Shown here: in pieces, positions 45,263 through 47,394 of the stretch
How the letters are laid out: each line of letters opens with the position of its first letter
Numbering within the stretch: the first letter of the stretch is position 1
Source of the DNA: Paenibacillaceae bacterium
GTDB lineage: Bacteria; Bacillota; Clostridia; Lachnospirales; Lachnospiraceae
Reading direction: 5' to 3'
DNA length: 47,394 nt
Assembly (NCBI GenBank): GCA_015057715.1
Contig: SVDS01000021.1
Coordinates: 1 to 47,394, forward strand
Translations under genes and position numbers: made by a program
The notes under the pieces: model-generated
The model's database searches: none
The model's input: the letters and a program-made list of their open reading frames with translations, nothing else
Told to the model about the DNA's origin: nothing

Positions 45263-45370
45263 CAGAGAGAATTTTGTAAATAAATAAGTACCAGCTAATA
45301 TTTTTTGTAAAAGCACTTTAAAGATAAGGGCGGCATAAAATAGGAGTAAGTAAGTTTAAGGTGGCTTTCT

Positions 45371-45652
45371 TTGAAAACTTTTCCCAAACCTTTAACTGCG
45401 CGAGAGGAACGAGAGTGTCTGGAACGATACCAGGAAGGGGATCAGGAGGCGAGAGCCACACTCATCGAGCGTAATATGCGTCTTGTAGCCCATGTGGCAA
45501 AAAAGTATCAGAATACAGACTATGATATGGAAGATCTCCTGTCAGTAGGGACTATCGGTTTAATCAAGGCTGTTAATACCTTTCATCCAGACAGAGGATC
45601 AAGGCTGGCCACTTATGCGGCGAAATGTGTGGAGAATGATATACTATCATAA
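45371..45652 (+). CDS. sigK: Sigma-K N-terminal half, interrupted
   Basis: A 93-residue fragment of the late mother-cell sporulation sigma factor. FPKPLTAREERECLERY is the sigma-K start without a pro-sequence, as in C. difficile. NMRLVAHVAKKYQNTDYD and LLSVGTIGLIKAVNTF are region 2.1-2.2, and RLATYAAKCVENDIL is region 2.3-2.4. It then ends in Ser-stop, where intact sigma-K continues with a Met-X-Leu-Arg stretch; the rest of region 2.4, region 3 and the DNA-binding region 4 are missing. The TTG start has AAGGTGG (45358-45364) 6 bases upstream. The break follows the AATGA (45635-45639) used by the B. subtilis skin element, so this is probably a gene half awaiting excision of an inserted element, or else a remnant. 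The other half is not in the window. Confidence 0.85.
   Translation: MKTFPKPLTAREERECLERYQEGDQEARATLIERNMRLVAHVAKKYQNTDYDMEDLLSVGTIGLIKAVNTFHPDRGSRLATYAAKCVENDILS
45635..45646. other. Candidate attachment site / insertion junction in sigK
   Basis: AATGA at 45635-45639 lies in the codons for Glu-Asn-Asp of sigK. From memory, AATGA is the 5-base recombination core of the B. subtilis skin element in the same codons. Coding similarity continues only about 6-7 bases further, so the left junction should fall at 45635-45646. The AraC gene on the other strand ends at 45647. Confidence 0.55.
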
Positions 45653-46507
45653 CGGCTTTTTAAGCCCATTATGCCGGTCTCTGTATTGAACAGGTGAAAT
45701 CCCCATGTTTTTCCTAAAAACCTTTGAGAAATAATTGCTGCCCGAGTATCCACATTCCTTCGCAATGGCCTCAAGACCCATTGACGTATTTAGAAGAAGG
45801 GATAATCCATGTTCCAGGCGCAGACTGGTTAAATACTTTATGGGAGAGAGTCCTGTCTGCAAGTGAAACTGCCTTGTTAAATGGGGAAGGCTCACGTCAA
45901 GCTCACGGCACATCTGAGAGAGCCCGATCTGATATTTATAGTTTTTCTGCATCCACTTTGCGGCATCTTCCACACAGGCATTTTTAACTGATTTTAGCGG
46001 GGTTTCCAGTTCTCTCATAAGCAGGGTAAGGAATTGATATAAAAAGATTCCGCTGTCATAGCGTCCGTATTTTTTCCCAGATTTCACCGCCTGGAATTCC
46101 TCTAAAAACAGTAAGATGGCCTGACTTGTATTGGGTATGGAAAAGGTTTTTCCTGTCAGTGCCTGTATCCGCTGAAAAAAATATTGCCCCATTTCGCCGT
46201 CAAAATGGATATAAAAGTATTTCCATGAATTATTTTCAGCCAGATAGTATCTGCTTCTATCTGGAAATGTGATAAAAAAAGCATCTCCAGGAGAAAGAAT
46301 GGCTGTCTGCCCCTCTGATTCAAACATTCCCATTCCATCTAATGTGTACTGAAGCAGATAACCAGAATAACTGCCTCGATTATTATTTTGAAAATCATAG
46401 GTTTCATTTTTTCTCTGCTCCAACCCAAAATCCAGGAGAAACAGTGGTGCATTCCATTGTCTGTCAAGATCCAGAAAACCAAATGTCTGGCAAGCTCCGT
46501 TGATCAA
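45647..46507 (-). CDS. AraC-family regulator, probable control of the alpha-galactosidase-like gene
   Basis: A 286-residue regulator with an N-terminal AraC-type sugar-sensing cupin (about 40-130, with GDAFFITFPDRSRYYLAE and WKYFYIHFDG). The C-terminal pair of helix-turn-helix motifs (about 185-280) includes LSQMCRELDVSLPHLTRQF and LEAIAKECGYSGSNYFSKVF, ending FRKNMGISPVQYRDR. The start is a TTG at 46507 with GGAGGG 7 bases upstream on the minus strand. It is divergent from the GH27-like gene and shares its ~100-base control region, so it is the obvious regulator of that gene. Its stop codon abuts the end of the broken sigK reading frame. Confidence 0.9.
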   Translation of the reverse strand: MINGACQTFGFLDLDRQWNAPLFLLDFGLEQRKNETYDFQNNNRGSYSGYLLQYTLDGMGMFESEGQTAILSPGDAFFITFPDRSRYYLAENNSWKYFYIHFDGEMGQYFFQRIQALTGKTFSIPNTSQAILLFLEEFQAVKSGKKYGRYDSGIFLYQFLTLLMRELETPLKSVKNACVEDAAKWMQKNYKYQIGLSQMCRELDVSLPHLTRQFHLQTGLSPIKYLTSLRLEHGLSLLLNTSMGLEAIAKECGYSGSNYFSKVFRKNMGISPVQYRDRHNGLKKPL

Positions 46508-46539
46508 AAAATTACCCTCCCTGTATCGTGTTCTTACTC

Positions 46540-46567
46540 TTGTAATACATTGTTCAGTTGCTATAAT
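46540..46567 (+). promoter_or_regulatory. Promoter of the GH27-like gene
   Basis: TTGTAA (46540-46545) and TATAAT (46562-46567) are 16 bases apart, with TG two bases before the -10 box (46559-46560). It lies in the divergent region between the AraC gene and the glycosidase gene. Confidence 0.65.
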
Positions 46568-46608
46568 GATATCAGATTTATCAATAAATTACCAGGAAAG
46601 GATATCGG

Positions 46609-47394
46609 ATGAGCAGATATTTATCATCAGGAAAACCCCCTATGGGGTGGAACAGCTATGACTATTATGATACGGCAGTAACAGAACAAGAGGTTCGGGC
46701 CAATGCTGAATACATGGCGCAGAATTTAAAAGAATATGGCTGGGAATATATTGTGGTTGATATACAGTGGTATGCTCATAATGCCGGAACCAGACGGCAG
46801 GAGTGCCAGTATATTCCCTTCGGTCAGGTTGAAATAGACGAATATTCCAGACTTTGGCCGTGTCCGGAACGCTTTCCATCTTCTGTGGGTGGTCATGGTT
46901 TCAAACCACTGGCTGATTATATCCATGGGCTGGGTCTAAAATTCGGGATTCACATCATGAGAGGAGTTCCCCGTATCGCAGCTCATAATAGGATGAAAAT
47001 ATGGGGAACAGATCGTACAGCCGATGGCATTTCCAATCCTTATTCCATTTGCTCATGGAACCCGGATATGTATGGAGTGAACCCTGAGGCAGAGGGAGCA
47101 CAGGCGTATTATGATTCTATTTTCCAGCTGTATGCCCAGTGGGGGGTGGATTTTATCAAATGTGATGATATCTGCCGCATGGATGCGGCGTCTGCAAAAG
47201 AAGAAATCTGTATGCTTCATGAGGCAATCAATAAAAGCGGAAGACAGATGGTACTTAGCCTTTCACCGGGACCTGCCCGGCTGAAAGAGGCATGGCATTA
47301 TGAGACTTACGCTAATATGTGGCGGATTACCGATGACTTTTGGGACGACTGGACTTTGTTAAAGCAGATGTTTGAACGGTGTGAGCATTGGCAG
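46609..47394 (+). CDS. GH27-type alpha-galactosidase-like glycoside hydrolase (partial, 3' end outside window)
   Basis: The first 262 codons of a glycoside hydrolase of the GH27/GH36 clan. The start reads KPPMGWNSYDYY, the hallmark beta-strand 1 of GH27. VVDIQWY follows in strand 2, and then a region typical of clostridial homologues, NPYSICSWNPDMYGVNP. The likely nucleophile is the first Asp of FIKCDDICRMD, and the acid/base Asp is probably in RITDDFWDDW. There is no signal peptide, so it should act on imported alpha-galactosides, or on a related sugar such as beta-L-arabinopyranosides. An AAAGGA-type ribosome site precedes ATG 46609. The frame is open to the last base, 47394. Confidence 0.88.
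   Translation, partial: MSRYLSSGKPPMGWNSYDYYDTAVTEQEVRANAEYMAQNLKEYGWEYIVVDIQWYAHNAGTRRQECQYIPFGQVEIDEYSRLWPCPERFPSSVGGHGFKPLADYIHGLGLKFGIHIMRGVPRIAAHNRMKIWGTDRTADGISNPYSICSWNPDMYGVNPEAEGAQAYYDSIFQLYAQWGVDFIKCDDICRMDAASAKEEICMLHEAINKSGRQMVLSLSPGPARLKEAWHYETYANMWRITDDFWDDWTLLKQMFERCEHWQ

Follow-up and report, generated by a model that had tools for sequence, protein, structure and literature searches.

Skin elements, their AATGA site, directionality factors driven by sigma-E and intervening elements of non-phage kind are already known (PMC5025042, PMC6957869, PMC5595907, PMC10745906). The skin element of Bacillus subtilis (SpoIVCA, Skr) is a 48-kb prophage remnant that splits sigK, with AATGA at the recombination site, a single large serine recombinase and a small directionality factor of 64 aa, and sigma-K in this species has a pro-sequence (PMC6957869, PMC10745906). 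The skinCd element of Clostridioides difficile (CD1231 recombinase, CD1234 directionality factor) lies at a different sigK site from that of B. subtilis skin, with its recombinase gene directly upstream of the sigK 3' part, no pro-sequence, and a small protein of 72 aa with a sigma-E promoter; several C. difficile strains lack the element (PMC5025042). In Bacillus cereus ATCC10987, gin splits another mother-cell gene, gerE, and is 28.6 kb long with 31 genes, among them three serine recombinases that are not all adjacent, and no phage-related genes (PMC5595907). A 22-kb insertion in the sigK gene of Bacillus cereus biovar anthracis, island IV, is of non-phage kind, is excised and carries restriction-modification genes (PMC10745906).

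The sigK gene of Lacrimispora is split by an element, here element A, that shares AATGA and a single large serine recombinase with B. subtilis skin, and shares with skinCd both the position of the recombinase gene and the lack of a pro-sequence. Its small ORF, a candidate directionality factor, may correspond to the small proteins of both, to CD1234 by description. Unlike B. subtilis skin, element A measures 2.65-11.5 kb, its Pfam-annotated cargo is not phage-like and the sigma-K concerned has no pro-sequence; unlike skinCd, it is genus-wide and carries a hydrogenase. A second element, element B, splits the same gene again in some genomes. It resembles gin in having three serine recombinases, no phage genes and a mother-cell gene as its site, and differs from it in lying in sigK and in carrying polysaccharide deacetylase and beta-propeller genes. 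Site and cargo of island IV are unlike those of either element.

Element A and the first two exons of sigK

The window analysed here is the whole of contig C267 (47,394 b), from a 5.40-Mb draft genome in 283 contigs (G000) that belongs to the genus Lacrimispora. The 93-aa ORF at 45371-45652, which begins with TTG, represents the 5' part of sigK. The NCBIfam SigK model TIGR02846 fits it better than SigE does (144.7 bits, E 3e-42); the match covers profile positions 24-114 and begins at position 24, so that a pro-sequence is lacking. An in-frame TAA (45650-45652) closes the frame. The original prediction, made from the letters alone, had described a sigma-K match running through VENDIL to a stop, AATGA at 45635-45639, and an AraC gene and a GH27-like gene behind the truncated frame; all of this holds, the two genes being recognized by Pfam (Table 1).

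Table 1. Features of the sigK end of the window (window coordinates)
Feature	Position	Strand	Basis and remarks
sigK leader/promoter region, conserved	45275..45370	+	Nearly invariant in alignment of 13/20 genomes
sigK exon 1 (5' part)	45371..45637	+	TTG start; lacks a pro-sequence; 3' end within region 2; without splicing, the ORF continues to stop 45650-45652
attL core AATGA	45635..45639		attL/attR comparison (20 genomes and 4 other genera); G007 contig ends
Element A, left 1,755 bp of 7,850 bp	45640..47394		Rest on contig C13 (L011) past 77-base overlap
AraC-family regulator, element A cargo	45650..46507 (with stop, 45647-46507)	-	Pfam HTH_18, AraC_binding
GH27/melibiase-like glycosidase, 5' part, element A cargo	46609..47394	+	Pfam Melibiase_2, 92.5 bits, for the protein completed from contig C13, where the gene continues

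The conservation of the roughly 95 bp 5' of sigK exceeds what a plain promoter would need, and a pattern search found no sigma-E pattern 5' of sigK in any of 20 genomes. Within exon 1 itself (window 45374-45637 and its relatives), dS is about 2 to 9 times below that of exon 2 in the computable pairs, the pair G005/G018 (0.51 vs 0.59) being the only exception, hinting at a constraint on exon 1 at the DNA or RNA level.

A search of the same genome placed the 3' part of sigK at C13:6162-6479 (SigK profile positions 109-213). It is the only SigK besides exon 1 among the 14 sigma-factor matches of this 283-contig draft, which include no intact sigK; the best-scoring of them (C136:1770-2408), 44% identical to the Lacrimispora sigK query, we infer to be SigE. 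The presence of two sigK halves in one genome rules out a chance sigma-like ORF. The last 77 bases of C267 are exactly the first 77 bases of C13, and exons 1 and 2 therefore sit 7,850 bp apart. An AATGA core lies at each end in direct orientation, attL in the window and attR at L011:6168-6172 (L011 being C13:1-20000). From left to right, exon 1 is followed by the AraC gene (minus strand), the GH27 gene, a HycI-type maturation protease, a cytochrome-b5-like protein with GPTGG repeats, the hydrogenase small and large subunits, a small minus-strand ORF, the recombinase and exon 2. The recombinase (557 aa, L011:4499-6172) has resolvase, recombinase and Zn-ribbon domains by Pfam, matches the integrase family PHROG 95, and ends in the exon 2 junction, its TGA stop lying within AATGA. 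The comparison with PHROGs covered the small ORF and this recombinase; by Pfam, no phage-derived gene was found among the element A and B proteins of G000, and the annotated ORFs of element A include no transfer genes.

Removal of insert A restores the reading frame, which supports the view that it is a skin-like element splitting sigK. Such an element had been one of the two readings of the original prediction, and what it led one to expect is in place, namely a sigK 3' half starting at AATGA, on contig C13 of the same genome, and a large serine recombinase immediately 5' of it. No other sigK was found among the sigma-factor matches, nor the same truncated ORF and genes in a relative without a recombinase, which all 20 placed elements contain.

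These 20 elements come from the 25 Lacrimispora genomes. Among the matches listed by E-value, separate exon-1 matches occur in 24 and separate exon-2 matches in 22 of the 25 genomes; both exons share one contig in 19, to which the overlap adds G000. All 20 elements occupy the same sigK site with conserved exon order on one strand and span 2,654-11,508 bp; a rejoined junction of exons 1 and 2 was found in none of the 25 assemblies. The recombinase and the cytochrome-b5-like gene are present throughout, the recombinase frame being intact in 19 and broken in G024. Trees were built for the recombinase (25 rows), the neighbouring purH-like gene (23) and the hydrogenase large subunit (15). All three share the clades {G000, G003, G004, G013, G014, G021, G024} and {G005, G006, G017, G019, G020}, and the first two also share {G002, G022, G023}; the deep forks are weak. 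As shown by comparison of sequences, element A has been vertically inherited in Lacrimispora. The sigK exons are likewise shown, at this level, to be under strong purifying selection: over eight chosen genome pairs, in some of which dS is saturated, omega does not exceed 0.02 in exon 1 and 0.03 in exon 2, and lies at 0.03-0.09 in the purH-like neighbour, 0.07-0.09 in recombinase A, 0.04-0.10 in the two hydrogenase subunits, 0.09-0.16 in the GH27 gene and 0.11-0.29 in the protease.

The core at attR is AATGA in 20 of 20 elements, and attL reads AATGG in eight and AATGC in one, AATG being common to all; this variation of the fifth attL base in nine of 20 elements places a two-base crossover within AATG. 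In another genus (L098), attL is AAACC against AATGA at attR. The crossover dinucleotide is therefore probably AA (45635-45636), provided that its position is the same in L098.

Across the family, 93 of 150 genera gave an exon-2 match, and seven of them, including that of the window, have a short frame, as judged by frame length. Among the other six, a recombinase lies beside exon 2 in five (L094, L095, L096, L097 and L098, 38-56% identical), which represent further sigK elements in Lachnospiraceae; exon 1 lies at 3.7-9.8 kb in four of these. The sixth (G151) was dropped, its frame being broken by a run of N with no recombinase alongside. Hydrogenase, cytochrome-b5-like and GH27 genes were absent from the stretch read of these elements.

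The small minus-strand ORF occurs in all 20 elements, pointing away from the recombinase, and encodes 55 aa in G000 and about 55-69 aa in relatives. Searches of Pfam, NCBIfam, PHROGs and a phage collection brought no match to it. At a constant distance 5' of it, ATA-N17-CATACA or CATATA is found in 20 of 20 elements (19 of 20 in strict form), where shuffled sequences gave 0.53 and 0.14 of 20, the 20 elements of this count being related rather than independent. Relatives of the ORF in three other genera (36-42% identical) have the sigma-E-like promoter in strict form in none and in loose form in one. The small ORF is our candidate for the directionality factor of element A; the sigma-E-like block could in part be a recombinase promoter on the other strand.

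The hydrogenase operon in element A

The large subunit matches Pfam NiFeSe_Hases with 324 bits, and its motifs RICGIC and DPCVSCATH are invariant in 10 aligned sequences. With RxCxxC and DPCxxCxxH in the large subunit, a small subunit and a maturation protease, the operon has the features of a group 1-like [NiFe] hydrogenase. The nearest solved structures are those of periplasmic [NiFeSe] enzymes for the large subunit (E 1.3e-88) and of a [NiFe] enzyme for the small one (E 1.5e-52); no Tat signal was seen by eye in the small subunit. Clostridial Group 1a [NiFe] hydrogenases with a cytochrome b5 neighbour likewise have a small and a large subunit, a cytochrome-b5-like gene and no Tat signal, but are not described in sigK, whereas the Lacrimispora operon is cargo of a sigK element (PMC9431212).

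A large subunit occurs in 17 of the 25 Lacrimispora genomes, with one match each, 15 in placed elements A (of 20) and two on element contigs (G007, G016), so that within the genus the hydrogenase was found only in element A. Family-wide (150 genomes, E <= 1e-40), it was present in two, G000 and G091 (55%). Among the best 80 of at least 541 public loci, sigK exons flank the hydrogenase in six of seven Lacrimispora loci (the remaining contig holds the element and nothing else) and are found near it in none of the 73 other loci within the fetched flanks; those 73 have a small subunit within 3 kb in 70 cases, a protease in 66 and a cytochrome-b5-like gene in 52. The operon itself is thus of a known kind, unlike its place inside a sigK element.

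The operon varies between relatives. The smallest elements (G011, G012) have no hydrogenase. The element of G018 holds the whole operon together with hypA, F, C, D and E. A distant HypD lies outside the element in 20 of 25 genomes, G018 having just its in-element copy, and 16 of the 17 hydrogenase-bearing genomes have HypD, the one without being G016 (82% complete). Broken hydrogenase genes are the small subunit of G004 and the large subunit of G020, which has one TGA. The cytochrome-b5-like gene (L011:1242-1934) is kept also in the elements without hydrogenase, and the number of its GPTGG-type repeats differs between relatives.

In the clade of G005, G006, G008, G009, G017, G019 and G020, an invariant block, AAAGAATATTT..TGTCCAACATATATAT, lies upstream of the protease gene (7/7), where the hydrogenase operon may have a sigma-E-like promoter. 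In another clade, the region before GH27 looks sigma-A-like in 7 of 7 aligned sequences. A loose sigma-E pattern is found 5' of the cytochrome-b5-like gene in two of 20 elements, with 0.47 expected.

Element B and a third sigK exon

The exon 2 frame diverges at one and the same codon in G000, G002, G022 and G023. A sequencing error at the end of exon 2 in G000 was considered and rejected, since the same left end of element B is found in the other three. The missing end of sigK, YVSRLEKKALERLRTELKRNGI (exon 3), lies 7,006 bp further on, at L011:13474-13539, followed by lepB; G002, G022 and G023 have the same split of exons 2 and 3, with a spacing of 8.3-8.4 kb. Exon 3 is a fragment of 22 codons that shows only synonymous differences between G000, G015 and G013. 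The split point of element B falls in what we take, by comparison, to be the recognition helix of sigK region 4.

Joined, all exons give an in-frame product of 210 aa, which the SigK subfamily model (cut-off 252) scores at 294.2 bits. Against the equivalog model it reaches 292.4 bits, below the cut-off of 298.65, as does the intact gene of genus G060 (293.1). Removal of element A alone already gives 269.0 bits (subfamily) and 270.4 (equivalog), the former above the cut-off, so that passing the subfamily model is no evidence of a need for exon 3.

Element B is unrelated to element A. Its genes encode a polysaccharide deacetylase, a BNR-type beta-propeller, a DUF6870 protein and, after the latter, three serine recombinases. 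All three have a zinc ribbon in G002; the second (326 aa) and third (419 aa) are without it in G000, and no intact first recombinase is among those listed for G022 and G023. The beta-propeller occurs in seven of 25 genomes: G000, G002, G022, G023, G015, which has the right half of element B with exon 3, G001 (contig C31) and G011. The sigK gene is in three exons in G000, G002, G022 and G023 and, judging by these parts, probably in six genomes in all. In G011 (L212, G011:C7), a deacetylase and beta-propeller pair lies outside sigK with no recombinases nearby; it is a possible source of the element B cargo.

Probable excision of both elements and its meaning

In G007, one contig of 7,842 b is exactly element A, from AATGA to AATGA; the contig with exon 1 closes with ..GAGAATGA, that with exon 2 opens with AATGAGATCC, and the contig ends overlap by just the 5 core bases in all four combinations. 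Contig C31 of G001 is exactly element B, from TA to TA (8,176 b), and its overlap with the contig of exon 3 is exactly 95 bases long. A contig of G016 ends at the element A core with a 99-base overlap; its left break lies elsewhere, so that it is a weaker sign. Breaks at exact cores are the assembler outcome expected when the integrated form and circular or rejoined forms are both among the reads. These breaks in relatives strongly suggest that both kinds of element excise, and do not bear on timing.

The reading that we hold with considerable confidence is that an inherited skin-like element A, and then the unrelated element B, interrupt sigK, and that both would be excised to rejoin the gene at sporulation. 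In growing cells, sigK in three exons would yield only the 93-aa fragment. In the mother cell, sigma-E would switch on the small ORF of element A, whose product would act as directionality factor for the recombinase to excise A as a circle, and element B would be removed by one or more of its three recombinases. The rejoined gene would give sigma-K without a pro-sequence, so that, as in C. difficile, timing would depend mainly on the excision of DNA. Both elements would stay in the forespore with their cargo: the [NiFe] hydrogenase, cytochrome-b5-like protein and GH27/AraC genes of A, and the polysaccharide deacetylase and beta-propeller of B.

It is unlikely, if conceivable, that only A is a true developmental element and B a recent parasite unable to excise in the lineage of the window, leaving sigma-K non-functional in this species only. 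The shortened recombinases 2 and 3 of G000 would fit such a history; yet G015 retains this set in its shortened form, with omega of 0.09, 0.16 and 0.24 and no internal stops, the exon 3 protein is identical to that of G013, and a G001 contig coincides with element B. Less probable still is that A and B are ordinary mobile islands for which sigK is a mere integration site, excision serving transfer and not sporulation. Serine-recombinase islands with cargo are common, B is patchy (6/25) and G011 has the B cargo pair at a place other than sigK, but A lies at one site in 20 of 20 placed genomes with a tree agreeing with that of the host gene and without transfer genes among its annotated ORFs, and the strong selection on sigK requires rejoining. 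Decay of sigK, the other reading of the original prediction, in which insertion of a metabolic island ended its function and sporulation was lost or is served by another factor, can be set aside as very improbable: the frame is broken as it stands and some genes are broken in some elements, but omega of exons 1 and 2 (0-0.03) is below that of the purH-like neighbour, the 22-codon exon 3 is kept with synonymous changes only, the split is genus-wide, and all but one of the 20 placed elements have an intact recombinase A.

With more reserve, we lean towards a wider proposal: some Lacrimispora would obtain sigma-K only after two unrelated recombination systems had each excised an element, a three-exon, two-key switch of late transcription in the mother cell, and the genus would have made element A a permanent home of its [NiFe] hydrogenase, so that with each sporulation the mother-cell chromosome would lose the genes of this enzyme and the spore would retain them. 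Neither a sigK with two elements nor a hydrogenase in a skin element was found in openly licensed PubMed Central papers, though either may be in print. Going by these papers, what is new is the presence of two unrelated elements within a single sigK, the hydrogenase cargo and the genus-wide retention of a sigK element.

Few bacterial genes are known to undergo programmed DNA excision. One gene that seems to need two independent excisions makes their order, dependence and error rate directly measurable, and element A, which has persisted through the divergence of a genus, offers natural variants from 2.65 kb, with the recombinase and the cytochrome-b5-like gene only, to 11.5 kb with the full hydrogenase operon. 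The hupL gene of heterocyst-forming cyanobacteria is interrupted by an excised element, and a hydrogenase tied to a developmentally excised element recalls it. Under standard annotation, sigK will count as truncated in these genomes, which may then be scored as asporogenous.
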